IMG/VR virus record: IMGVR_UViG_3300035390_000008
Coordinates: 1-43,351 of that record
Direction: 5' to 3' (one strand)
Length of the DNA stretch: 43,351 nucleotides
From: a virus
Part shown: positions 11-20,123 of the stretch, piece after piece
How positions within the stretch are numbered: position 1 is the first letter of the stretch
Layout of the letters: each line of letters begins with the position of its first letter
Notes under the pieces: generated by a model
The model's database searches: none
Told to the model about the DNA's origin: nothing
What the model saw: only the letters and a program-made list of their open reading frames with translations
Translations under genes and position numbers: made by a program

Positions 11-460
11 ATGGAAAAACAGTTAATCGTTTTGATGGGATTAGCTGGTTCAGGAAAAAGTACTTATGTTGATATGTTTTTGAGGAATGATCACCAAGTG
101 CTATGTGCTGATGATGTTAGACTAGCTCTTGGTAGTTCATATAATTTAAAAACTGAACCAGTTGTATATATGATTCTTGATGTACATTGTAGAGCATTGA
201 TGATAAGAGGATTACCAATTGTCATTGATGCTACCTCATGTCAAGAATATGTTGTTAAAAAATATAAAAACCTCGCAGATGAATATGGGTATAAAATAAC
301 TGGTGTACATATTGATACTCCATGTTATCTCTGCATTGAAAGAAGAGATGGAATAATACCTGCTACTAAAATAAGAGATCAAGAGAGTGATCTTGATAAT
401 TTACTTGAAGTTAAAGATAAATATTTTGATGAAATTATAACTATTAAAGGAGATTCTTAA
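11..460 (+). CDS. P-loop polynucleotide kinase-like protein
   Basis: 149 residues with a Walker A motif GLAGSGKST at residues 10-18 and the general layout of the AAA_33/zeta-type kinases that includes the 5'-kinase domain of T4 polynucleotide kinase: ADD after the first helix, a VIDAT strand-turn near residue 72, and an arginine-rich lid (IERRDG) near residue 109. The family transfers the gamma phosphate of ATP to a 5'-OH of RNA or DNA. It has a kinase domain only, with no 3'-phosphatase domain. The start is supported by AGGAG at bases 1-5. Its stop overlaps the ATG of the next gene by one base, so the two are probably co-translated. Fold assignment is fairly sure; the substrate is inferred. 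Confidence 0.75.
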   Translation: MEKQLIVLMGLAGSGKSTYVDMFLRNDHQVLCADDVRLALGSSYNLKTEPVVYMILDVHCRALMIRGLPIVIDATSCQEYVVKKYKNLADEYGYKITGVHIDTPCYLCIERRDGIIPATKIRDQESDLDNLLEVKDKYFDEIITIKGDS

Positions 461-6013: not shown

Positions 6014-6259
6014 TTGAATATTTATGAAGATAAAGCTATATTAAGACCAGGACAAGTTCATTGTAAAAAATGTTTTGGCACTGGATTTATTCAAAAACGT
6101 TTTACATTTAGAAATGGTGGATTAAATGATTCTAGAATAAAAAATTATAGATGTGCTGATTGTAGTGGCACTGGAAAATTTGATTGGATTGAAGTAGTAG
6201 TTGGAAAGAAAGATAGAAATCATGGTAATATTTATGACATACCGGAGTATAATCTATGA
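6014..6259 (+). CDS. DWIE zinc-motif protein, copy 1 (81 aa)
   Basis: First of nine tandem paralogues. It has CKKCFGTG at the N-terminal side and CADCSGTG near residue 52, followed by FDWIEVVVG. The paired CxxCxGxG motifs resemble those of the DnaJ cysteine-rich domain, where two motifs make one zinc site, but there is no J domain. Translation starts at TTG 6014 with GGAGGA at 6005-6010; a nearby ATG is out of frame. The stop overlaps the next ATG (ATGA). Confidence 0.8.
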   Translation: MNIYEDKAILRPGQVHCKKCFGTGFIQKRFTFRNGGLNDSRIKNYRCADCSGTGKFDWIEVVVGKKDRNHGNIYDIPEYNL

Positions 6260-6504
6260 TATGTAAACATTGTAATGGAAAAGGCGTAACAGAAGAATAT
6301 ACTGAGTTGGTAGATGTTAAATCAAAAAAAGTTTGGCAGAAAACTAAATTATGTTTATATTGCCTGGGAAAAGGTGAAATAGATTGGATTGAAAATATTG
6401 TTGGTGTTGATTATTCTAATTCCGGGAATCTTATTCAAACTCATCCTTCAACTATATGGGGAGGATTTGATGAAGATGAAGGGGATATAAAATATGATTT
6501 GTGA
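6256..6504 (+). CDS. DWIE zinc-motif protein, copy 2 (82 aa)
   Basis: Contains CKHCNGKG at residues 3-10 and CLYCLGKG near residue 35, then IDWIENIVG. The spacing between motifs (about 30 residues) varies within the array while the second motif plus DWIE is rigid. The acidic C-terminus (DEDEGD) is unique to this copy. It overlaps both neighbours by a few bases, so translation is probably coupled. Confidence 0.8.
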   Translation: MICKHCNGKGVTEEYTELVDVKSKKVWQKTKLCLYCLGKGEIDWIENIVGVDYSNSGNLIQTHPSTIWGGFDEDEGDIKYDL

Positions 6505-6787
6505 TAGATGTGAAGGAGATGGTATAATATTTGATAGAAGAAAAAAATTCTATGAACAATGGGAATCGTGGTATGAGACCCATACATCTGTTTGTCCTAA
6601 ATGTCATGGAGACGGAAAACTTGATTGGATTGAAAATATAGTTGGTAAAAAAGAATCAAATAAAAAAAGTCAAACTGTTCATCATGGTGCTTGTTTAGGG
6701 TGTGTAACATCATCGAAACTTTGTCCTAAATGTAAATATTATAAAAATCTTGGTAATAAACCAAGTTTAAGAAAGCCGAGGTTTTAA
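6494..6787 (+). CDS. DWIE zinc-motif protein, copy 3, with extra cysteine cluster (97 aa)
   Basis: Contains CDRCEGDG and CPKCHGDG followed by LDWIENIVG. This copy carries a C-terminal extension with a further CLGC...CPKC pair (roughly residues 74-91), which could form a second zinc site. Starts at ATG 6494 inside the end of copy 2. Confidence 0.8.
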   Translation: MICDRCEGDGIIFDRRKKFYEQWESWYETHTSVCPKCHGDGKLDWIENIVGKKESNKKSQTVHHGACLGCVTSSKLCPKCKYYKNLGNKPSLRKPRF

Positions 6788-6788
6788 T

Positions 6789-7004
6789 ATGATTTGTGAT
6801 AAATGTAATGGAACAGGTTATCAAAAAAATGAATATCCAGTTACTATGAACTCTCCTTCTGGAACTAGATATATAATTGGATATTCAAGAACTTGTTTGA
6901 AATGTCATGGTAAGGGTAATCTTGATTGGATAGAAGCAGTAGTTGGTAAAAACCCAGATGATTTAAACTATAAAGAAATGATGGAATTTTCAAGGTTGAG
7001 GTAA
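6789..7004 (+). CDS. DWIE zinc-motif protein, copy 4 (71 aa)
   Basis: One of the shortest array members, close to the core unit: CDKCNGTG, about 27 residues, CLKCHGKG, LDWIEAVVG and a short tail. The ATG follows one base after the stop of copy 3. Confidence 0.8.
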   Translation: MICDKCNGTGYQKNEYPVTMNSPSGTRYIIGYSRTCLKCHGKGNLDWIEAVVGKNPDDLNYKEMMEFSRLR

Positions 7005-7006
7005 CT

Positions 7007-7252
7007 ATGGAATTAAAAGAAGGTGAAGTTATATGTCCAAAATGTAAAGGATCTGGTAATCAGGCAGATTGGATGCATCTACCAGATTATAGAGTCCATA
7101 TGGAATGCTGTCATTGTAATGGATCTGGTAAATTAGATTGGATAGAAAACATAACTGGTAAAAAAGAAAAACCATTTAAAATCAGAACTTCATATGGTAT
7201 TACTACTACTGATTTTCATCCTGGTAATGTAGTGGGTATAATTGGATCATGA
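7007..7252 (+). CDS. DWIE zinc-motif protein, copy 5 (81 aa)
   Basis: Begins MELKEGEVICPKCKGSG; the KEG-x-x-x-C lead-in recurs in copies 6, 7 and 9 and may be part of the fold. The second motif is CCHCNGSG followed by LDWIENITG. The tail is rich in G, T and S. It overlaps the next start by 4 bases. Confidence 0.8.
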   Translation: MELKEGEVICPKCKGSGNQADWMHLPDYRVHMECCHCNGSGKLDWIENITGKKEKPFKIRTSYGITTTDFHPGNVVGIIGS

Positions 7253-7494
7253 AAAAACCATTAAAGGAAGGCAGCGAATACTGTAAAGAGTGTAATGGAA
7301 CCGGACAGATTCCAGTTGAGTCTACAACACATGGTTCATTTCAATTTACTTGTCCTATGTGTCATGGTGATGGTCAATTTGATTGGATAGAAAAAATAAC
7401 TGGTAAAAAAACATATAAATTAGATTTCCTTAAAGAGAATGAAATTGGATTAGGATATCTATCTCACCCTGATAATATTTATTTGGATAATTAA
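7249..7494 (+). CDS. DWIE zinc-motif protein, copy 6 (81 aa)
   Basis: Begins MKKPLKEGSEYCKECNGTG, then CPMCHGDG and FDWIEKITG. All four cysteines and the glycines of both motifs are intact. The C-terminal 25 residues have no resemblance to the other copies. Confidence 0.8.
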   Translation: MKKPLKEGSEYCKECNGTGQIPVESTTHGSFQFTCPMCHGDGQFDWIEKITGKKTYKLDFLKENEIGLGYLSHPDNIYLDN

Positions 7495-7495
7495 T

Positions 7496-7771
7496 ATGAA
7501 AAAATTAAAGAAAGGGGAAATGTTATGTGATAAATGTGATGGTGCTGGTTGTATTGCTAAAAAACAATGGACTATGGTTGATTATAAACATATATCATAT
7601 GATTGGTCATATAAATGTGATAAGTGTAAAGGCGAAGGAAAACTTGATTGGATTGAGAATGTTGTTGGGAAAAAACCTTTACCAGATGAAAGAGAAAGAG
7701 AAAGACTTCTTAAAATATTTTCAGTTGGAAAAAATGCAATTATTCAGGGATATGATGATGACAAAACGTAA
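7496..7771 (+). CDS. DWIE zinc-motif protein, copy 7 (91 aa)
   Basis: Begins MKKLKKGEMLCDKCDGAG, then CDKCKGEG and LDWIENVVG. Slightly longer inter-motif stretch with several aromatic residues. Its last 14 bases overlap copy 8 in another frame. Confidence 0.8.
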   Translation: MKKLKKGEMLCDKCDGAGCIAKKQWTMVDYKHISYDWSYKCDKCKGEGKLDWIENVVGKKPLPDERERERLLKIFSVGKNAIIQGYDDDKT

Positions 7772-7994
7772 ATTAGAACCTTGTTCTAAATGTAAAGGTA
7801 AAGGAAGTGTTACAATAGATAATGAAGAATGGTGTTGTGATAAATGTGATGGTTGGGGTCAGTTGGATTGGATTGAACAGATAACTGGAGTAAATTCAGA
7901 TAATATTCCCTGGGTTACTGAATATACAATGAAGGAAAACTTAAATGAGACAAAGAAAAAAGAAACCGTTGAAAGAAGGGATGGTATATTGTAA
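7758..7994 (+). CDS. DWIE zinc-motif protein, copy 8 (78 aa)
   Basis: The open frame extends far upstream (to 7527), but that part is only the other-frame reading of copy 7. Three consecutive ATG codons (7752, 7755, 7758) follow an AGGG site at 7746-7749; I choose the last for spacing. Motifs are CSKCKGKG, CDKCDGWG and LDWIEQITG. The inter-motif segment is the shortest of the array (about 12 residues). Confidence 0.75.
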   Translation: MTKRKLEPCSKCKGKGSVTIDNEEWCCDKCDGWGQLDWIEQITGVNSDNIPWVTEYTMKENLNETKKKETVERRDGIL

Positions 7995-8346
7995 ACATTG
8001 TAAAGGTAATGGTTTAATAAAACCTTATAGAGAACATTCTATGTTGGGGATTAAATACAGAATAACAAATAAATGTAAATACTGTGGTGGAACTGGTCAA
8101 AGAGATTGGATTGATGCAATGACAGGTAAGATTCCAGAAGTTAAAATACGAGGGTTTGATATAAGTAAATTTAGAGCATGGGGAATTCCTATTAAAACAT
8201 CTAGAAATAGAAGAACATATTCGGATAAAATATTGAATATATTAAAACTAAAACATGGAACGCCATTAGGTACAATGCAAAAATTATATAGCCACCATAT
8301 AAATCCTATTGATTTTAATACATGGTTGGTTAGAGTAAAAAAATAA
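7945..8346 (+). CDS. DWI[D] zinc-motif protein, copy 9, long tail (133 aa)
   Basis: Has CKHCKGNG, CKYCGGTG and RDWIDAMTG, so the otherwise invariant glutamate is an aspartate here. It carries a basic C-terminal extension of about 65 residues, including a possible helix-turn-helix-like stretch (TPLGTMQKLYSHHINPIDF), which could bind nucleic acid. It overlaps copy 8 by 50 bases. Confidence 0.75.
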   Translation: MRQRKKKPLKEGMVYCKHCKGNGLIKPYREHSMLGIKYRITNKCKYCGGTGQRDWIDAMTGKIPEVKIRGFDISKFRAWGIPIKTSRNRRTYSDKILNILKLKHGTPLGTMQKLYSHHINPIDFNTWLVRVKK

Positions 8347-10140: not shown

Positions 10141-12324
10141 ATGGCACATTTAGAAAAATTGAAATCAATTATTCCAATGGAACAAATTGAGCAAGGTGCT
10201 CAACAACAAATTTATAATACTTTAGAATTGGATTTTTTAATAAAATTGGCAATTATGGCTGATGTTCATCAAGGTTATACTCTTCCAATTGGTGGAGTTG
10301 CATTACTTGATGGAGTTATATCTCCTGAGTATGTTGGATTTGATGAAGGTTGTTTTGTAGGTTCTACAAAAATACCTTTATTAGATGGTAGAGATTATAC
10401 ATTGAAAGAGTTATATGATAAAAACATTAAAAACTTTCCCGTATATTCTATGGATTCAAATGGTAATCATAAAATTGGAATTGCTGATGAAGTTAAATTA
10501 ACAAGAAAAAATGCAGAATTAGTAAAGATTGTTTTGGATAATGATGAAGAATTCATATGCACACCTGATCATGAATTTTTAAATATTGATTCTAAAACAT
10601 ATACAAAAGCTATTGATTTAAGTAATGAAATTTCTATATTTCCTTTTCATAGATATTTAGATAAATATGGTTATGAATTATTAGGTGTGAAAGGAACAAC
10701 TTTAGCAAGACCAACTGCATGGATTGTTGGTGAATCTGGATTGATTGGTGACATACCAAAATTTGAAAATGGAACTCAGATTCATCATAAAGATAAAAAT
10801 AAATTAAATAATTTTCCTCATAATCTACAATTTATTGATAAAATAGAACATTGTACATTACATGCCAATGATAGAAATTATTTTGCAACTGATGATTTTA
10901 AAGAAAAGAAAAGAAATACTATTGCTGAAAGAGGTTATACTTATAGTGGTAAAGGTTTAATATCAATACAGGAAACAAGTAGAAAAAATATTAATGATTA
11001 TATGAATAATAATCCAGACCATTTTAAACAAGTTGTAAAAGAAAATGCAATTAGGGGCGGAAAGTTTTTTAGTCAAAAAAATAGTAGTGAAGAAATGATA
11101 TTAAAACAAAAATTAGGACGAATTTTAAAATTAATTCAAAAGTGTATTATAGATTTTGGAGAAATAACAAAAGAAAATTATGAAATAACTAGAAAACATT
11201 TTTATAATTACCCAATGTATAATAAATCTTTATCTATTATAAATGAAATAGGTTATAAAAGTTTTGAGGAATTTGTAAATAATAATAAATTTAGCAATAA
11301 TCATAAAATTAAAAGTGTAACGGTTCTTGATTATAAAGAAGATGTATATTGTTTAACTGTTCCAGAATATAATAATTTTGCTATTTCAGCCGGAATATTT
11401 GTTCATAATTGTGGTATGTGTTGTATTGTAACTGATATGCTTGCATCTAAATTAAATAAAAAGCATTGGGAAAAAATATATAAAAAGATATATGATGTTG
11501 TGCCAGTTGGTGTTGGTGTTCCAAGAACCAAAGCATATTATGATATACCTCAATTTAAAACAGCGTCTGGTAATAAAGACCTGCAGAAAAAAGTTGTTGA
11601 TAAACAATATGTTCAAGTTGGAACATTGGGTGCTGGTAATCATTTTATTGAAATTGGCGAGAATAGAACTGGTCATGTGGTTATTACAATTCACTCTGGA
11701 TCAAGAAATATAGGTCACTCAATCGCTGACTATTATATGAGACTGTCCAGAATGGAAGATAAACATTTACCTGATGGATTCCTTGATCTTAATAGTGAAC
11801 ATGGTATAGCATTTTCAATTGATTTAGAATTTGCTTTACAATATGCTCTTGATAATAGAATGCTTATGATGATTGATGTTTTGGATATTCTTGGATTTAG
11901 TAACCATGATCAAGAGATTTATCTAAGACGAATGATTAATGAGAATCATAACCATGCAATCATTAGACCTGATGGGGTTCTTCATAGAAAAGGTGCTACT
12001 CCTGCTGAACTTGGAGTACTTGGAGTTATTCCTGGAACAATGAGGTCAGGCGTTTATATTACTTCAGGACTTGGTAATAGTGAATATCTTGACTCGGCAT
12101 CTCATGGAGCAGGTCGTAAAATGAGTAGATCAAAAGCAAAGAAAGCCATTAGTTTAGATCAACATCAAAAATGGATGAAAGGTATTATAGCCAAGGTTGA
12201 TAAGTCAACATTGGATGAAGCTCATGGAGCATATAAGAATTTGGCTACTGTAATAAGTCAACAAGAAGGAATTTTAATTGATGTTGTTGATTATGTTAAA
12301 CCTATAGTTAATATTAAAGGATAG
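10141..12324 (+). CDS. rtcB: RNA-splicing ligase RtcB with intein
   Basis: 727-residue precursor. Mature RtcB would be 374 residues (1-70 joined to 424-727). RtcB joins RNA ends with 2',3'-cyclic phosphate or 3'-phosphate to 5'-OH ends using GTP and manganese. Seen here: MADVHQGY near residue 39, DEG-CGM at the splice junction with C424 as the metal-binding cysteine, GTLGAGNHFIEIG at 494-506, IHSGSR at 517-522 and SHGAGRKMSR at 654-663, whose H655 should be the guanylylated histidine. All key residues are present, so the spliced enzyme should be active. Start follows AAGGAG at 10129-10134. The intein splits the gene at the active-site cysteine, so the unspliced protein should be inactive. Confidence 0.93.
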   Translation: MAHLEKLKSIIPMEQIEQGAQQQIYNTLELDFLIKLAIMADVHQGYTLPIGGVALLDGVISPEYVGFDEGCFVGSTKIPLLDGRDYTLKELYDKNIKNFPVYSMDSNGNHKIGIADEVKLTRKNAELVKIVLDNDEEFICTPDHEFLNIDSKTYTKAIDLSNEISIFPFHRYLDKYGYELLGVKGTTLARPTAWIVGESGLIGDIPKFENGTQIHHKDKNKLNNFPHNLQFIDKIEHCTLHANDRNYFATDDFKEKKRNTIAERGYTYSGKGLISIQETSRKNINDYMNNNPDHFKQVVKENAIRGGKFFSQKNSSEEMILKQKLGRILKLIQKCIIDFGEITKENYEITRKHFYNYPMYNKSLSIINEIGYKSFEEFVNNNKFSNNHKIKSVTVLDYKEDVYCLTVPEYNNFAISAGIFVHNCGMCCIVTDMLASKLNKKHWEKIYKKIYDVVPVGVGVPRTKAYYDIPQFKTASGNKDLQKKVVDKQYVQVGTLGAGNHFIEIGENRTGHVVITIHSGSRNIGHSIADYYMRLSRMEDKHLPDGFLDLNSEHGIAFSIDLEFALQYALDNRMLMMIDVLDILGFSNHDQEIYLRRMINENHNHAIIRPDGVLHRKGATPAELGVLGVIPGTMRSGVYITSGLGNSEYLDSASHGAGRKMSRSKAKKAISLDQHQKWMKGIIAKVDKSTLDEAHGAYKNLATVISQQEGILIDVVDYVKPIVNIKG
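10351..11409 (+). mobile_element. Intein with HNH endonuclease domain in rtcB
   Basis: 353 residues (71-423 of the precursor). It begins CFVGSTKI (block A, nucleophile C71), has TPDHEFL at 141-147 (block B with T and H), VYCLTVPEYNNF near 402-413 (block F) and ends FVHN (block G) followed by C424 as the +1 nucleophile. All class 1 splicing residues are visible. Between the blocks lies an HNH-type homing endonuclease signature, IHHKDKNKLNN at 214-224 and HNLQF at 227-231. The region is more AT-rich than the flanking extein, consistent with separate ancestry. Confidence 0.92.
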
Positions 12325-12879: not shown

Positions 12880-13608
12880 ATGAAAAACTATCATTTAACA
12901 TTTGCATTGGCAATATGCTCATTACTACTAACAATAATTTTGGGTTGTGGCGATTATTATGATGAAGGTAATGAAACGGCGAAACAAAGATTTGAAAAAA
13001 TGACGTCTCAAGAAAAAGCTTTATATACTTCAGTTGAAGAAATATGGGGTCAAAAAGATTTAAAAACTATTAGAGAATCAGTATCAAGACGGGAAACAAG
13101 ACCTGTAGAATCTACCTTAGCTTTTAAAGATATAGCAGCTGTTATCAAAACAAACAATGTTGCCTCATTGAAATTAAATGATGGTTGGGATACTGCTAAT
13201 AAAAATAAACATATCAAAGCACGATGGGATAGAATTGATGAAAATTGGTATAGAGATCTTCTTTTATCAGTGGGTGTTAGAGAAATTATTAAACAAGATT
13301 TAATTCCAGAAGAACAAGTTATTGATGAAACATTACCAGAATCACTTAATGAAATTAATAATGATTTAAAAGAAATAAATAATTATATTGAGGAATACCC
13401 AGAAGCTGTAAAAGTTAATTCAAAAGATATAATTCCAGAAGATAAATATGATGATTTATATTATGAAATTAAAAGATGTCCAGAAGCAGTAGAGCAATAT
13501 AAACAAATTGTTAAAGAAAGAATTTTAACATGGGCTGATTATGAATTGTTGACTAGAATTTCACTCAAATGTAAAGCTGATGAAACATTAAAAAAATTGG
13601 AGATGTAA
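12880..13608 (+). CDS. Phage-encoded lipoprotein (242 aa)
   Basis: N-terminal signal peptide: KNYH, a hydrophobic core of about 17 residues, then IILGC at about residues 19-23, a lipobox-like cleavage and lipidation site. After the cysteine the mature protein is charged and helical. Two PEAV segments (EEYPEAVK and RCPEAVEQ) hint at an internal repeat. Lipoproteins of phages often act in superinfection exclusion or at the membrane during lysis, but nothing here decides between these. AAGGAG at 12870-12875 supports the start; its stop is joined to the radical SAM gene (TAATG). Confidence 0.75.
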   Translation: MKNYHLTFALAICSLLLTIILGCGDYYDEGNETAKQRFEKMTSQEKALYTSVEEIWGQKDLKTIRESVSRRETRPVESTLAFKDIAAVIKTNNVASLKLNDGWDTANKNKHIKARWDRIDENWYRDLLLSVGVREIIKQDLIPEEQVIDETLPESLNEINNDLKEINNYIEEYPEAVKVNSKDIIPEDKYDDLYYEIKRCPEAVEQYKQIVKERILTWADYELLTRISLKCKADETLKKLEM

Positions 13609-14657
13609 TGAATAATTTAAAAATTGTTAAAACTACTTGTGGTAATACTATTAAATACAGACCTGAAAATGTTAAACTTGTTGAAACAGATGAATATGTA
13701 CTTTTATTTAATCCAAAGACTGGTGAAGAGATTCTCACTGGGATCAATGGACATCCAGATCCATTTGTACTTGATTTTCCAAGTATGCTTGATATAGGCA
13801 TTATGGGTCATTGTGACAACCATTGTGAATTTTGTTACCAAGGGGATAAGTATGAGCCTAACATGTCCTTAGAAGGGTTTAAACGAATTATAGATCAATC
13901 TAAAGACTATGTTAATCAAGTTGCTCTTGGCGGTAGAGGTGATCCAAACCAACATGAAAATTTTGAAGAAATCCTTGAATATTGTGTTAAAAATAATGTA
14001 GTTCCAAACTATACAACCAGTGGTATTAGGTTAACTGATAAACAAATTAGTATATCAAAAGAGTATTGTGGAGCTGTAGCAGTATCAATGTATTATAAGG
14101 ATCATACATACAATGCCTTGACTGGATTGATGAATGCTGAAGTTAAAACTAATATTCATTATGTGTTAACTAAAGACAATCTAGAACATGCCTGTAGATT
14201 GATACAAGGCGAGGATTTATACAAAGATAATTTTAAGCTTTCAGATATCAATGCAATTGTGTTTTTGTTATTTAAACCTGCTGGTAAAGGTAAAAATTTA
14301 GATTGGTCGCCAACAGTTGAACAATTAAAAATATTCGCTGAAGTAATCAAAAAACCTGACTGTGAATTTAAAGTTGGTATGGATAGTTGTTTAATCAACA
14401 AGGTATCTCAATCAAGAGAATTAACATCTGTTGAAGAATTATATACAGATACTTGTGAAGGTGCAAGAATGTCTTGTTATATAACTCCGGACGAGAAATT
14501 AGTACCATGTTCATTTGGTGATCATGATAAATATGGTATTGATATTTCAAAGGGAAATATGAAAGATGTATGGTTTGATGGTAAACCTTTTAAGGATTTC
14601 AGACATGTATTGATGGGCACTAAAGCATGTTGCCCGTATACCGTATTAGGATTTTAA
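13608..14657 (+). CDS. Radical SAM enzyme with SPASM-like C-terminus
   Basis: 349 residues. CDNHCEFC holds the cluster ligands C69, C73 and C76 in the CxxxCxxC arrangement of radical SAM enzymes; GGRGDPN at 108-114 is the usual next motif (GGEP-like). C-terminal cysteines at 252, 261, 283, 290, 301, 341 and 342, including CEGARMSCYITPDEKLVPC at 283-301, look like a SPASM/twitch domain binding an auxiliary iron-sulfur cluster, as in enzymes that modify peptides and proteins. It is immediately followed, one base on, by the first of six genes with a shared DFVTNSSS N-terminus. The substrate is unknown; a peptide or protein is the family expectation, and the neighbours are my inferred candidates. 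Confidence 0.88.
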   Translation: MNNLKIVKTTCGNTIKYRPENVKLVETDEYVLLFNPKTGEEILTGINGHPDPFVLDFPSMLDIGIMGHCDNHCEFCYQGDKYEPNMSLEGFKRIIDQSKDYVNQVALGGRGDPNQHENFEEILEYCVKNNVVPNYTTSGIRLTDKQISISKEYCGAVAVSMYYKDHTYNALTGLMNAEVKTNIHYVLTKDNLEHACRLIQGEDLYKDNFKLSDINAIVFLLFKPAGKGKNLDWSPTVEQLKIFAEVIKKPDCEFKVGMDSCLINKVSQSRELTSVEELYTDTCEGARMSCYITPDEKLVPCSFGDHDKYGIDISKGNMKDVWFDGKPFKDFRHVLMGTKACCPYTVLGF

Positions 14658-14658
14658 T

Positions 14659-15075
14659 ATGAAAAGAAAACTAGATTTTGTAACGAATAGTTCATCAACT
14701 AGTTATTTAGTTTATATGCCTGATAATTTTGAAATTAGAAAATTTAAGGATATGATATTAACAAGATGTGAAGCTGATTTACGTGATTATTGTGATGAAC
14801 TACCATTAGAAGAGGGTTTAGAAAAATTCTTTAAAGAATTTGATGATTTTATTAATACTGGAGATTTTTATCAATATGAACATGATTTTTCATTTTATCT
14901 AATATCAAGTATTCTTACTGAATTAGAATTGATTATAACTGAAGAATCTACTGGTTCCGATGATGGATCAATTCAAAATCTTAATGTTAAAGTTATAAGA
15001 AATAAAATAGAAACAATTAAATCTGGTGGCTGGGGATTAAAATACGGAGGTTGGGGACATGAAAGTAAAGACTGA
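14659..15075 (+). CDS. DFVTNSSS-family protein A (138 aa)
   Basis: N-terminus MKRKLDFVTNSSSTSY, then an unrelated acidic body of about 120 residues ending in a glycine- and tryptophan-rich segment (SGGWGLKYGGWGHESKD). It begins one base after the radical SAM gene and overlaps copy B by 17 bases. The GGW repeats at its end are unusual and could be modification sites. Confidence 0.8.
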   Translation: MKRKLDFVTNSSSTSYLVYMPDNFEIRKFKDMILTRCEADLRDYCDELPLEEGLEKFFKEFDDFINTGDFYQYEHDFSFYLISSILTELELIITEESTGSDDGSIQNLNVKVIRNKIETIKSGGWGLKYGGWGHESKD

Positions 15076-15409
15076 TTTTGTAACAAATAGTTCTTCTGCA
15101 TCATTTATATTAACATTAAGACCTCATGATGGAACTATGGAGTTAAGTGAATTTACTAATCTATTTAATAAATATTTAGAGGATTATAAGAAAAATAATC
15201 CAAATTCTCTTCGATATTGGGACGCAACCAATATAGATGAAGTTCAAGATGATGTAGGTCCAAATTTATTTACAATAAATGAATGTGTTTCTATGTATAA
15301 TGATGCAGATGATGTTCCTGCTTATATAAAAGAATTGATGATTAATTCATATATTAGGGATAGAGATTGGGGGTTCGTGGTAAGTTCATTTAAAGTAGAT
15401 GAAGATTAA
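15059..15409 (+). CDS. DFVTNSSS-family protein B (116 aa)
   Basis: N-terminus MKVKTDFVTNSSSASF followed by an acidic body with no similarity that I can see to protein A. The ATG sits in the GGGGACATG end of gene A, with GGAGGTTGGGG about 8 bases before it acting as ribosome binding site. Confidence 0.8.
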   Translation: MKVKTDFVTNSSSASFILTLRPHDGTMELSEFTNLFNKYLEDYKKNNPNSLRYWDATNIDEVQDDVGPNLFTINECVSMYNDADDVPAYIKELMINSYIRDRDWGFVVSSFKVDED

Positions 15410-15414
15410 GTATT

Positions 15415-15618
15415 ATGGATGATAAAGAATTTTATCAAACCGAACATGAATTTATCTTTGGTGTATTTGATAGAGGTGATTTGATGTTTGAATATAAAAG
15501 AACCACATGTACTCATGCTGCGGCTGCTGTAATAGTAGGTATATTATCGTTGGCTAAAGATTCATTAGAACCAGGACATTATTTTGCATGTACTATTGCA
15601 AAGGAGATTAAAATATGA
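15415..15618 (+). CDS. Small alanine-rich protein between family members (67 aa)
   Basis: 67 residues, without the DFVTNSSS start. Contains CTHAAAAVIVGILSLAKDS near residues 32-50, an amphipathic or weakly membrane-associated helix. It may belong to the cassette because it overlaps gene C by 4 bases. Not recognised. Confidence 0.55.
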   Translation: MDDKEFYQTEHEFIFGVFDRGDLMFEYKRTTCTHAAAAVIVGILSLAKDSLEPGHYFACTIAKEIKI

Positions 15619-15998
15619 AAAGAAAACATGATTTTGTTACTAATTCAAGTTCATGCTCATTCATATTTATTGGATGGGTTGTTGAAACCGGCGATATAGA
15701 AACTGAAGTTGTCAAAGAGAACATGAAAATATTTGGTGATAATGAATATGATCCTAAGTTAAGTCCATATGAAAATCTTATGGAAGTTTATAATGGTAAA
15801 GTTGATATGACTATTGGAGATAGTGAAAATGGTTTTCCTGATGGAAAATTATGTATAGGTATTAGTCAATCAATTAGCGATGATGATTATGAACCATGCG
15901 AATATAGTATTAAAGATGTTATGGATCGTGATCCTAAATTAGCTGAACTTTTTAACCAGGATGATATAAAAATAATAACTGGTATAGGGATGTGTTAA
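15615..15998 (+). CDS. DFVTNSSS-family protein C (127 aa)
   Basis: N-terminus MKRKHDFVTNSSSCSF, where the variable position after the three serines is cysteine. The body is acidic (pI clearly low) and unlike the others. AAGGAG at 15600-15605 supports the start and the stop is fused to gene D's start (TAATG). Confidence 0.8.
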   Translation: MKRKHDFVTNSSSCSFIFIGWVVETGDIETEVVKENMKIFGDNEYDPKLSPYENLMEVYNGKVDMTIGDSENGFPDGKLCIGISQSISDDDYEPCEYSIKDVMDRDPKLAELFNQDDIKIITGIGMC

Positions 15999-16564
15999 TG
16001 AAAATTAAACAGGATTTTGTAACTAATAGTTCTAGTACGTCTTTCATCTTTCTTTTTAAAGGTGATAAGAGAACTGATCTATTTGAAAAAATGGTTAAGT
16101 ATGAAGATAAATTTAAACTATATAATGAATACCATGGGTCTAGTGGAGATTATATTAATGTTTGGGATCTTATTAAAGCATTAGATCCTATCCTATCATC
16201 TAATGAACAAGACCCTTGGTACTTACCTGGACCTCTTGTAACTACTAAACTTCTTGAAACAATAGAAAAAGAATTGGAAGATTTAAAAGTAACTCTTGAA
16301 TCTGAATTGGAAAGAGAAAAAGAAGAATCTGGTTCATGGAAAGCATCTGGATATACTAAAGATTATATAAGAGATACTGAAAAAAGATTAAATAAGTTTA
16401 AAGAAGCAGTAGAGTATGGCCTTGATCATTATATTGAAGTTTCATTTGGTGATAATGATGGAATGATTAGTGGTGGTAGAATTGGTTGTACAATGGATTA
16501 TTCTGGCAGAAGTATTAATCTAAATCATAAAGATTTAATAGTTGTTGTTGAAAATCAACATTAG
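15998..16564 (+). CDS. DFVTNSSS-family protein D (188 aa)
   Basis: Largest member. Start placed at ATG 15998 on the preceding stop (TAATG), giving MKIKQDFVTNSSSTSF at the N-terminus as in the other members; an in-frame ATG at 15992 adds two residues. The middle (residues about 80-140) is a long charged helix, probably a coiled coil, and the C-terminus has FGDNDGMISGGRIGC. Confidence 0.8.
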   Translation: MKIKQDFVTNSSSTSFIFLFKGDKRTDLFEKMVKYEDKFKLYNEYHGSSGDYINVWDLIKALDPILSSNEQDPWYLPGPLVTTKLLETIEKELEDLKVTLESELEREKEESGSWKASGYTKDYIRDTEKRLNKFKEAVEYGLDHYIEVSFGDNDGMISGGRIGCTMDYSGRSINLNHKDLIVVVENQH

Positions 16565-16594
16565 GAAACTATTTTAAACAAAAGGAACATATAA

Positions 16595-16969
16595 ATGGAA
16601 GAGTTTAAGTATTATACATTAGTAGGTGTAAATCTTTCAAGAGGAAATGATATGGTTCCTAAATTTTCAAGAGATTTTCTTTTAAGATGGACAACCAATG
16701 AAAGAAAAACTGCACAATTAGCTCAAGAAATGGTTAAAAATGAATTATTTAAAACAACCGAAAAAGAAGCTATTGAGGCATGTGGATTTAGTGAAGCTTT
16801 TGATTTAACAGGTATAAGAATTAGGATGAGATATTGTCCTGAGATAACTGCTCATTTATTTGAAACTGATTTTGTTTTAACAGATGAATGGACCGACATA
16901 TTAATAGATTCAGCTAATTATTCTGATCATGGAAAAAAACAATTAGCTGATTCAAGAATAAACATATAA
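16595..16969 (+). CDS. Hypothetical protein in the cassette (124 aa)
   Basis: Lacks the DFVTNSSS start. Ribosome binding site AAAAGGAAC at 16580-16588. The body contains two cysteines and a basic central helix (RWTTNERKTAQLAQEM). Not recognised; included in the same run of genes without a terminator. Confidence 0.6.
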   Translation: MEEFKYYTLVGVNLSRGNDMVPKFSRDFLLRWTTNERKTAQLAQEMVKNELFKTTEKEAIEACGFSEAFDLTGIRIRMRYCPEITAHLFETDFVLTDEWTDILIDSANYSDHGKKQLADSRINI

Positions 16970-16979
16970 GGAGATTTAT

Positions 16980-17444
16980 ATGAAAAAGAAGATGGATTTT
17001 GTTACTAACTCAAGTAGTACAAGTTTTATTGCTTGGGGTATTACAATGGACTTGGAAACTTTAAAAGAAAAATATGGCAAAGGATTATTTAAACTTTATC
17101 AAGCGAGACAGGATAAAAAGAAACATGAGAAAGCTATGAAACAAGGAGCTATGTTTACTGTTCCATCCAGTGTTGCTCCTGAAAAAGAAGAAGAAGATTA
17201 TCTTAAATTTCTTGAAGATGATTTTACATGGTCTATTGAAGGGGTTATTGAAGACTCTGGATTGAATTGTAGAAGTATGCCATATGAGGATGAGTTAATG
17301 ATTGGGAGATGTCCTTTTTCTATTAAACCTGATCAAACATTAACTGAGTTTAAACAAGATATTTGTAATAGCTTTAAACAATGTGGTATTGATATGACAC
17401 CTGATCAACTTGGTCAAATCGAAGAATGTTGGATGGATAATTAA
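16980..17444 (+). CDS. DFVTNSSS-family protein E (154 aa)
   Basis: N-terminus MKKKMDFVTNSSSTSF, followed by a lysine-rich helix (residues 28-55) and an acidic, cysteine-containing C-terminus. AAGGAG at 16968-16973 supports the start. Confidence 0.8.
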   Translation: MKKKMDFVTNSSSTSFIAWGITMDLETLKEKYGKGLFKLYQARQDKKKHEKAMKQGAMFTVPSSVAPEKEEEDYLKFLEDDFTWSIEGVIEDSGLNCRSMPYEDELMIGRCPFSIKPDQTLTEFKQDICNSFKQCGIDMTPDQLGQIEECWMDN

Positions 17445-17459
17445 AAAGGAGACTTTATT

Positions 17460-17639
17460 ATGATTGGAACTACTATAGCAGTAATATCAGCGTATTATTC
17501 AATAGGAATTGGGATAAAAATTCTTAATGAAGATGGAACTGAAACAAAAGATGCAGTAACTAAAGTGATGAAAAATGCATCATATTGGCCAAAAGATCTT
17601 TACAATAAATTTAAAAAAGATAATAAGGATGATAAATGA
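17460..17639 (+). CDS. Small membrane protein (59 aa)
   Basis: ATG 17460 lies 7-8 bases after AAGGAG; product of 59 residues with one hydrophobic segment at residues 2-22 (IGTTIAVISAYYSIGIGIKIL) split here as IGTTIAVISAYY and SIGIGIKIL, then a basic, lysine-rich tail. Likely membrane-anchored with the tail in the cytoplasm. It overlaps the methyltransferase start by 4 bases (ATGA). Confidence 0.65.
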   Translation: MIGTTIAVISAYYSIGIGIKILNEDGTETKDAVTKVMKNASYWPKDLYNKFKKDNKDDK

Positions 17640-18238
17640 AAAGTTATTTAAATATAGCTGCAGGTAAAATTAAACCAATTGGGTTTGATAAAGAAAATAA
17701 CTTTCTATGTCAATTAGATAAAATGTATTGGGCAGTAACCCCAATTGATGTTATTGAAAAAACCCATGACCATTGGATTAATACTCCAAATACAAATGAA
17801 CTATGTCATACTGATGTAGATGCCTTTGAATTTCTTGGTAATTATAAATATCAATTTGATCATATTTCATGTTATAGATTCCTTGAGCATGTAACAAAAA
17901 CTGATATCCAAGGATTTATTTATCTTCTTTCAACAGCATTAAAGATTGGTGGAACTCTTGATATTATTGTTCCTAATTATGAAACTCTTGCTGATATGAT
18001 TCTTAATGAAAATCTTAATGAAAAAGTGAAACATGCATATTGGGAACGTCATGATACTCTTTTAACATATGAATTGTTGAATGAACCTTCCATGCCTCAT
18101 GCTTCTATCTGGACTCCTAACAGGATTAAGTATTTCTTTGGAATAGAAGAAAGATTTGAAATTAAATTAATGGACCCAAATTATGTATTTGATGGTAGAG
18201 ACATTTATATTAGGGCCATGTTTGAAAGAGTAAAATAA
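17636..18238 (+). CDS. Class I SAM-dependent methyltransferase-like protein
   Basis: 200 residues with the layout of the methyltransferase type 11 fold: LNIAAGKIKPIGFD at 5-18 (motif I region), DVDAFEFLG at 60-68, FDHISCYRFLEHV at 74-86 (the usual D-x-I-x-x-x-x-x-L-E-H), and LKIGGTLDIIVPN at 102-114. The glycine-rich loop is weak (AAGKI rather than GxGxG), so the SAM site may be degenerate. Its place between DFVTNSSS proteins E and F, together with the radical SAM gene, suggests a role on the same substrates. Inference only. Confidence 0.72.
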   Translation: MKSYLNIAAGKIKPIGFDKENNFLCQLDKMYWAVTPIDVIEKTHDHWINTPNTNELCHTDVDAFEFLGNYKYQFDHISCYRFLEHVTKTDIQGFIYLLSTALKIGGTLDIIVPNYETLADMILNENLNEKVKHAYWERHDTLLTYELLNEPSMPHASIWTPNRIKYFFGIEERFEIKLMDPNYVFDGRDIYIRAMFERVK

Positions 18239-18255
18239 ATACATTTAAAAAATGT

Positions 18256-18290
18256 TGTGTTATATATATTAATATACATAACATAACACA
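18256..18290 (+). other. AT-rich hairpin between methyltransferase and protein F
   Basis: Arms TGTGTTAT (18256-18263) and ATAACACA (18283-18290) pair perfectly around a 19-base AT-only loop region. This 80-base gap is the widest in the cassette. It could be a weak terminator or part of a promoter region for the last family member. Confidence 0.4.
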
Positions 18291-18318
18291 TAAAATTGTA
18301 ACTTTTTATGAGGTGTTT

Positions 18319-18678
18319 ATGAAAAGAAAAGCAGATTTTATTACAAATAGCTCAAGCACATCTTTCATTATAACTTCTAATGATGAAAAATTATTAAAAG
18401 TTCCAATGACAATTGAAGTTGATCTTAACCAATATATAGATAAAAAAATAACAACTATTGAAGAGTTAAAAAAATATTGGCTTGAAGATAGATATGAAGA
18501 TGAAGAAGATGAAGAGTATATCAAATGTAAGAAAAAAATTGAAGCAGGTGATATTGTTTATTGCTTACATTGTTCAGATGAAGATGATCCCTTAGAAGCA
18601 GTACTTTGTCGAGAGGGAATAAATAATTTAAACATGCCGAAAGGTATAACAATTATTACAGGAGAAGGAGGATATTAG
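18319..18678 (+). CDS. DFVTNSSS-family protein F (119 aa)
   Basis: N-terminus MKRKADFITNSSSTSF, the only copy with isoleucine for valine. Start at ATG 18319 is chosen over a GTG six bases earlier because it gives the family N-terminus and leaves GAGGTG as the binding site. The body is strongly acidic (DRYEDEEDEE near residue 57), ending KGITIITGEGGY. Confidence 0.78.
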   Translation: MKRKADFITNSSSTSFIITSNDEKLLKVPMTIEVDLNQYIDKKITTIEELKKYWLEDRYEDEEDEEYIKCKKKIEAGDIVYCLHCSDEDDPLEAVLCREGINNLNMPKGITIITGEGGY

Positions 18679-18755: not shown

Positions 18756-20123
18756 ATGAGTGACTGGGATGATGAAGCAAGAGGTTCAGGAAACACAATG
18801 TTTGGACTTTCAATGAAGAAAATAACTACAATTGCGGTATTTGCATTTATTCTTGTTTTTGGACTTATCTTTTCGCAGAGTCTTATTGAAACGGTTGATA
18901 AAGGAACTTATCAGATTAAACAGGCGGCTGTTACTGGTAACATGAGTGTTAAGATGACTCCTGGTGTTTGGGCTCAGATGTTTGGTGATATTGATGTGTG
19001 GCCAAAAGCGGAGACATTCTTCTTTACTGCTGATGCAGATACAACCGATGATGTTGGATCTGATAATTCCATTGAAGTAAGATTCAATGATGGTTCTATT
19101 TGTAATATTTCTGGAACTGCCAGAATCTTGATGCCTACATCAGATGCTGAAGCACTTTCAATTGTTACAGAAAGAGGTCATAAAACATATGGTGATGTTA
19201 AATCCAAATTGATCAAACCTACTGTCAGAAACGTATTGCGTCATACTGCTAACCTTATGTCTGCAACTGAATCATATTCAAGTAGACGTGGAGATTTTAT
19301 TTCCTGGGCACGCGATCAGATTGCTAATGGTCTGTATGAAACTACAACCGAAAGAAAATATGTAACTGATCTTGTATCTGGCGAAAAAGTATGGACAGAA
19401 GTTACTGTTATCAAAACTGATACTGGTAAGGTTGATGGAAAACCAATGTATAAGTTTAATCCCCTTGCAGGTAGTGGGATTGGAATTAAGAACTTTGAAG
19501 TTAAAAAGTTTCAGTATGAAGATAAAGTTAAAACCCAGATCGGCGCACAGCAAGAAGCACGGATGGCTGTAAATACTGCTAAAGCCAAGGCACAAGAGGC
19601 GGAACAGGATAAGCTTACCATTGAGGCACAGGGTAAAGCACGTGTTGCAAAAGCTGAATATGCTGAGTTGGAAAAGAAAGCAGTCGTAATTGTTCAGGCC
19701 CAGAGAGACAAAGAACAGGCAATCATTAAAGCTGAAAAACAAAAAGAAATGGAATCTATTGCTAAAGAAGAAGCAATCATTAAAGCTGAAAAGTTTCGTG
19801 ATGTTGCTCAACTTGATGCAAAAGCTGCCGATTTTGAAAAACAAGCTAACATCCTAAGGGGTGAAGGTGAATCTTCTAGAAAGAAAATGGTTATGCAGGC
19901 TGATGGAGCCCTTGAATTGAAAGCCAAATATTGGTTGGCAGCTCAGGAAGCATATGCAAGAGAATTTGGTAAACAAAAATGGGTATCTGAAGTTACAATG
20001 GGTTCTACTGGTGATGGTAATACTGGTGGTGATGCTGTATCACAGTTCATGAATCTTCTCAGCACTAAAGCTGCTAAAGATCTTGCACTTGATATGAGTA
20101 TGGATACCAAGACAACTAATTAA
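18756..20123 (+). CDS. SPFH (band 7/prohibitin-like) membrane protein
   Basis: 455 residues. One transmembrane segment at about 23-42 (TTIAVFAFILVFGLIFS), then an SPFH-type domain (about 46-235, with VDKGTYQIK and PGVWAQMFGDIDVWP strands), then a long alanine/glutamate/lysine coiled coil (about 262-395), as in prohibitins, flotillins and HflK/C, which assemble into membrane rings and organise proteases or microdomains. Uses more C- and G-ending codons than its neighbours, suggesting strong expression. Preceded by a 77-base gap with an AATTT repeat and TGGAG; followed by a 12-bp hairpin. An SPFH protein in a phage is uncommon. Confidence 0.85.
   Translation: MSDWDDEARGSGNTMFGLSMKKITTIAVFAFILVFGLIFSQSLIETVDKGTYQIKQAAVTGNMSVKMTPGVWAQMFGDIDVWPKAETFFFTADADTTDDVGSDNSIEVRFNDGSICNISGTARILMPTSDAEALSIVTERGHKTYGDVKSKLIKPTVRNVLRHTANLMSATESYSSRRGDFISWARDQIANGLYETTTERKYVTDLVSGEKVWTEVTVIKTDTGKVDGKPMYKFNPLAGSGIGIKNFEVKKFQYEDKVKTQIGAQQEARMAVNTAKAKAQEAEQDKLTIEAQGKARVAKAEYAELEKKAVVIVQAQRDKEQAIIKAEKQKEMESIAKEEAIIKAEKFRDVAQLDAKAADFEKQANILRGEGESSRKKMVMQADGALELKAKYWLAAQEAYAREFGKQKWVSEVTMGSTGDGNTGGDAVSQFMNLLSTKAAKDLALDMSMDTKTTN

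Follow-up and report, generated by a model that had tools for sequence, protein, structure and literature searches.

A radical SAM enzyme recurrently encoded beside proteins that share an N-terminal tail, in phages and in cellular genomes

A 43,351-base fragment from a virus record (IMG/VR record IMGVR_UViG_3300035390_000008, positions 1 to 43,351; hereafter the window) carries a cluster at 13608-18678, all on the + strand, in which a radical S-adenosylmethionine (SAM) gene is directly followed by open reading frames (ORFs) with a common beginning. Six of them start with M-K-x-[KR]-x-D-F-[VI]-T-N-S-S-S-x-S-[FY]. The enzyme, R (13608..14657, +; 349 aa; PF04055, E 8.8e-8), and the motif proteins, M, belong to a tight and recurrent association that extends well beyond this virus. 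M1 (14659..15075, +; 138 aa; N-terminus MKRKLDFVTNSSSTSY) begins 1 bp past R and overlaps M2 (15059..15409, +; 116 aa) by 17 bp. There follow M3 (15615..15998, +; 127 aa), M4 (15998..16564, +; 188 aa; the longest ORF begins at a GTG at 15992), M5 (16980..17444, +; 154 aa) and M6 (18319..18678, +; 119 aa; a DFITNSSS variant). The DF[VI]TNSSS DNA pattern occurs six times in the window, always on the + strand, where shuffled sequence gives an expectation of 0.00, and we recovered all six motif-starting proteins that a first-pass annotation had placed after the radical SAM gene. Between 12880 and 17444, neighbouring genes adjoin or overlap one another, with gaps of -17 to +30 bp. The earlier statement that the cluster lacks a terminator holds from R through the fifth motif gene, where we found no + strand terminator-like site; the single one found lies within the methyltransferase ORF described below.

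The conserved tail spans 18 codons (14659..14712, +, in M1), and its equivalents in the other window motif genes begin at 15059, 15615, 15998, 16980 and 18319. Mean identity among the six proteins is 76% over the first 18 residues and 19% over the bodies. The bodies had been described as diverging completely, which is a fair account of the six among themselves but not of each alone, since every one has relatives on other phage contigs (20 for M2). Searches of Pfam, NCBIfam and PDB sequences with the window motif bodies gave nothing usable. Across 479 motif proteins, information content is high over the first 18 positions and drops steeply from residue 19 onwards. The consensus reads M-K-[IV]-[KR]-x-D-F-V-T-N-S-S-S-[ST]-S-[FY]-[IV]-[IV], with T9, N10, S11 and S12 conserved at 99-100% and S13 at 99%. 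The search pattern dictated part of residues 6-13 but left residues 4 and 14-18 free, and the motif genes found beside enzymes in the enzyme-anchored sets were not constrained by it at all. At all three of serines 11-13, AGY and TCN codons alternate, indicating selection on the protein sequence.

Behind this tail, the bodies of the 479 proteins fall into 112 groups at E<1e-6, and profile comparison between different body families aligns the tail only. Bodies range from about 60 to 720 aa, some with LRR and BRCT domains. In the AlphaFold2 (AF2) model of M5, the body is confidently folded (mean predicted local distance difference test, pLDDT, 90.5) and residues 1-10 are predicted to be disordered (pLDDT 46). 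Thus, conservation is highest where predicted order is lowest, as would be expected if the tail is a target or recognition site. A fold search of the M5 model against the PDB gave no match. Literature searches with the motif string found no paper, and no curated family in the libraries searched describes the tail or ties it to the enzyme. At six loci, motif proteins of 470-660 aa have an alanine-rich hydrophobic stretch after the tail that resembles a signal or membrane segment.

R has the CxxxCxxC motif of radical SAM enzymes at C69/C73/C76, a PF04055 match over the cut-off, and the corresponding fold in its AF2 model (pLDDT 92.8). Its best fold match is SuiB with bound precursor (TMq 0.70), followed by an anaerobic sulfatase-maturating enzyme (anSME) with bound peptide, a sactisynthase, SkfB and PqqE; SkfB and BtrN are also matched at the sequence level. 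Residues 1-60 are modelled as strands and SuiB aligns along the length of R, with no RRE domain identified. The SPASM-like cysteines reported at first pass are present, C261, C283, C301 and C342 being conserved in the alignment. The full SPASM complement of seven cysteines and two auxiliary clusters is not, as R ends after C342 and the C-terminal half is missing. This truncation relative to cellular relatives accounts for the weak Pfam SPASM match (E 0.02, below the cut-off). Likewise, 88 viral enzymes are without the CxGGC part, most viral sequences stopping after C342 and retaining C261, C283, C301 and C342 in addition to the SAM cluster, and the cellular relatives keep the full cysteine set, including CxGGCP. 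The window enzyme therefore probably holds at most one auxiliary cluster. On the tree, truncated viral enzymes are nearly one group and full-length viral ones are scattered among cellular enzymes, a pattern that repeated transfers would give. R fits no named NCBIfam maturase family (best 44.4 bits against a cut-off of 380), and viperin identity was rejected on score (19.3 and 32.8 bits against an NCBIfam cut-off of 180).

A scan of IMG/VR for the motif returned at least 120 stretches, and 50 of these records were tested for PF04055. The domain was present in 39 of the 50, compared with none of 40 control records drawn by an unrelated 17-base pattern. Motif records were longer on average than controls; among those of 70 kb or less, 20 of 27 still carried PF04055. 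Radical SAM genes lay within 2.5 kb of a motif in 23 of 53 cases. When the motif positions were rotated 5000 times, this count averaged 6.6 and never exceeded 16. In each of the 23 close pairs, enzyme and motif are on the same strand. The proximal viral enzymes form two distant clades. Clade A, which includes the window enzyme, has 36 rows, 35 of them proximal to a motif and usually with the enzyme first; clade B has 17 rows, 10 of them proximal, with the enzyme usually downstream of the motif genes. At six phage loci, a clade B gene stands directly after motif genes, and some phages may thus use two enzymes on one tail.

Starting from the enzyme gave the same picture. A search of viruses with a single protein found nothing, and an alignment query was needed to reach relatives. 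With the clade A alignment, motif proteins were found at 62 of 80 viral loci, 27 of them within 50 bp, and one further locus carries the variant SNVTNSSS. A 75%-identical relative of the window enzyme occurs in a 207-kb phage contig, L392. Among isolate phages, none matched the tail or a full-SPASM enzyme. Matches of the window enzyme there were limited to KP15-like phages, in which the motif is absent. The radical SAM protein of Klebsiella phage KP15 (phrog_7293) is homologous to the window enzyme over its full length at 28% identity, but it has no motif proteins among its neighbours.

In cellular genomes, a motif scan of contigs, with one genome per species, returned at least 118 stretches. 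The matches listed come mostly from anaerobes (Clostridia, Bacteroidota, Coriobacteriia, Deltaproteobacteria, Campylobacterota and Chloroflexi), with single motif contigs from other bacterial groups and from archaeal assemblies. Those from Lokiarchaeota and Thermoplasmatales bear phage-like arrays and may be viral. Nearly every cellular motif gene among these matches adjoins an enzyme matching the clade A model. A survey independent of the motif compared the enzyme alignment with 196 Clostridia and 398 Bacillota genomes, excluding two seed genomes from the count. R was present in 15 genomes, and a motif protein, D-to-G variants included, adjoined it in all 13 non-seed ones. Conversely, the motif pattern occurred in three of the same 196 Clostridia, all among the five with R. 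The two genomes that appear to have R without a motif reflect codon limits of the DNA pattern, in which ARR for K/R misses Arg codons of the CGN type and the RRY step is similarly limited where D has changed to G. Only the seed genome among 395 Bacteroidia carried R, so the module is sparse. R was single-copy in 14 of 16 genomes tested, with extra partial matches in the other two.

The enrichment of radical SAM genes beside the motif, proposed at first pass as a check, is thus seen from both the motif and the enzyme, and in viruses as well as cells. The same annotation had supposed a phage protein-modification system; the pair is not peculiar to phages, since this enzyme family and tail recur in genomes of bacteria and archaea, where they often form a simple pair of genes. 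Two cellular contexts stand out beside the one treated next. At five loci, the pair adjoins genes for a FecCD-type importer, an ABC ATPase and a lipoprotein, a second recurrent context; at four others, motif proteins, several with LRR_5 repeats, lie near MoxR-type AAA and vWA/metallopeptidase-like genes.

The further cellular context is immune-like. A large gene, c2, lies in a translationally coupled cluster with motif protein and enzyme at 20 of 118 cellular loci among the matches listed, and 3 of the 13 genomes recovered independently of the motif also have c2 in the cluster. The usual order is then c2-c3-M-R, with genes overlapping or nearly touching. c2 has the core of Avs proteins, matching PADLOC Avs2 (E 1e-17 to 5e-82) as well as NACHT, nSTAND3 and NPHP3, and like the Avs2 STAND NTPases it carries interchangeable N-terminal effectors: trypsin-like, TIR-like or SMEK-type. 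A SMEK domain is annotated in c2 of the two plasmid copies inspected, from Agrobacterium and Rhodobacter; in short Argonaute defence systems, this domain is described as a nuclease (PMC10810196). Unlike Avs2, most c2 proteins are about 820-1050 aa and do not have the long C-terminal repeat sensor, the match ending near profile position 660-780 of 1504. Small genes follow in its place. The first, c3, is homologous to M but has no motif (hhalign 96.9%, E 1.3e-10), and M and R come after it. In such an operon, M beside its motif-less homologue may act, in modified form, as sensor or adaptor. We note 19 loci as candidate defence operons.

Within the window cluster, three ORFs lack the motif. One of 67 aa (15415..15618, +) had been called a small membrane protein, which is doubtful, as it is weakly hydrophobic with a maximum hydropathy of 1.37 over 19 residues. 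A 124-aa ORF (16595..16969, +) has a homologue at the equivalent place in phage contig L392. The third (17636..18238, +; 200 aa) is a putative and weakly supported class I methyltransferase, as first annotated, on a sub-threshold match to Methyltransf_12 (E 0.007, under the Pfam curated cut-off) and a match to PHROG 6636 (E 0.0012); it has homologues amid the motif genes of phage contigs L392 and L393. Directly upstream of the cluster, 12880-13608 (+) encodes a protein bearing a lipoprotein-like signal (LTIILGCG); its stop codon shares one base with the start of R. Directly downstream, 18756-20123 (+) encodes an SPFH/Band 7 protein (phrog_11908, E 5.5e-54) that has a transmembrane stretch at its N-terminus. 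Further upstream lies an RtcB RNA ligase interrupted by an intein (10141-12324, +; Pfam Intein_splicing E 3.7e-20, weak HNH); its homologue in L392 has 377 aa and no intein insert. About eight short proteins in a row at 6014-8346 (+) carry CxxCxGxG (DnaJ-like) zinc-finger halves and share a D-W-I-E-x-[IVM]-[VT]-G block, forming a second multi-copy constant-motif family of the window. A folE2-type GTP cyclohydrolase (460-1299, +; E 5.8e-62) is preceded by a small AAA_33 kinase-like protein at 11-460 (+).

We think it probable that the cluster is a protein-maturation module in which R modifies the exposed tail of its M clients. One radical SAM/SPASM-type enzyme would serve several proteins, each presenting the same N-terminal tail ahead of its own folded body. 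R would bind this tail and perform a radical reaction on one of its residues, most likely within the invariant T-N-S-S-S stretch or at the conserved Phe. The modified tail would then be the common functional element, and the body would provide client specificity. Supporting this module are the linkage of R and M, the restriction of conservation to the tail, the predicted disorder of the tail, and the likeness of R to peptide-modifying enzymes. The first-pass suggestion that the shared N-terminus is a recognition or modification site finds partial support in that the tail goes with R; that the tail is the site modified, by what chemistry and for what purpose in phages, we infer.

Several observations weigh against this reading. 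Neither a Cys nor any known modification motif is present in the tail. At 17 of the 80 viral R loci, the flanking sequence retrieved encodes no motif protein. The motif-anchored viral counts are partly redundant phylogenetically, several contigs being close relatives, so the number of independent events is smaller than the count. Finally, the viral loss of the C-terminal SPASM half means that activity may differ from that of cellular relatives, or may have been lost.

What phages gain could lie in the virion. The tail may mark proteins for a virion step that requires R, such as packaging or ejection, with host immunity uninvolved, a purpose compatible with the maturation module. A tail-sheath gene within about 5 kb at 52 of 79 enzyme-anchored viral loci speaks for this; the same pair in cellular operons without phage genes speaks against it, and we regard it as a tentative possibility.

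More doubtful is a second alternative, modelled on ribosomally synthesised and post-translationally modified peptides (RiPPs), in which R would recognise the tail only as a leader and would modify the variable body. Here, R does resemble the SPASM RiPP maturases (SuiB, SkfB, PqqE and the sactisynthases) in its radical SAM core, in a fold shared over nearly the whole enzyme, and in having a neighbouring gene for a candidate substrate whose N-terminus is constant and whose remainder varies. The fold likeness is to SuiB bound to a leader-bearing precursor. However, the candidates are not short core-modified peptides. They are folded proteins with an 18-residue tail, of 116-188 aa in the window and up to about 720 aa elsewhere, and their roughly 112 body groups have no common residue pattern. 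Docking peptides usually need fewer than about eight consecutive near-invariant residues, and the tail, with about eight that are mostly small and polar, exceeds that need. Moreover, no peptidase or exporter recurs beside R, and viral enzymes probably retain no more than one auxiliary cluster. The constant-leader, variable-core analogy drawn at first pass consequently fits less well than it had seemed.

Known enzymes that act on proteins offer partial parallels. anSME is, like R by fold, a radical SAM/SPASM enzyme, and acts on a short motif of larger proteins. Its C/S-x-P/A-x-R target is missing from MK[IV][KR]xDFVTNSSS, its catalytic Asp follows the third SPASM Cys where R has Ser, and the client candidates of R are many unrelated bodies. 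Both the anSME and the sactipeptide readings were rejected, the target motif and Cys being missing from the tail. In the NTPase-centred MoxR-vWA 'FtsH ternary' conflict system, a radical SAM enzyme has been proposed to modify a peptide effector (Kaur et al. 2020, PMC7159879). MoxR/vWA genes also neighbour some of our motif loci; as far as that description goes, those systems are without this tail, occur in other lineages and involve peptidase-processed peptides.

It is also conceivable, and in our view unlikely, that the tail is a general post-translational tag of prokaryotes and their viruses, made by one R per genome; bacteria would employ the tagged protein as sensor or adaptor in STAND-type immunity, and large phages would bring an R of their own and sets of tagged proteins to imitate, saturate or block that pathway. 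Less likely still, M might dock on R through the tail as an adaptor or regulator, with R acting elsewhere, for instance on a nucleotide as viperins do. Cellular R is weakly viperin-like (PADLOC pVip, E 2.3e-14), viperins are among the fold matches of R, and one cellular context is immune-like. Yet R falls far below the viperin cut-off (19-33 bits against 180), SPASM peptide maturases outscore viperins as fold matches, and a docking adaptor would have no need of six copies in one phage or of more than 100 distinct bodies. An already disfavoured reading, that R and M are functionally unconnected and linked through inherited synteny or hitchhiking in defence islands, draws on the relatedness of several viral contigs and the many in one myophage type near tail genes, but is very improbable given that R and M remain paired in phages and across phyla of both bacteria and archaea, with enzymes 29-55% identical and in both gene orders, and that a second, distant radical SAM clade also adjoins M genes.

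The pair is found in many large phages, in archaea and in several phyla of bacteria. If R modifies the tail, this would be a protein-modification system whose recognition sequence is defined to the residue, and which is therefore directly testable. The recurrent STAND-NTPase operon is a candidate for an immune architecture of a new kind, with a small, chemically modified protein substituting for the usual built-in sensor. For phages, nearby tail genes suggest a virion function and the STAND operons suggest counter-defence; use of the module against STAND immunity is possible, and its phage versions are thereby candidates for counter-defence.

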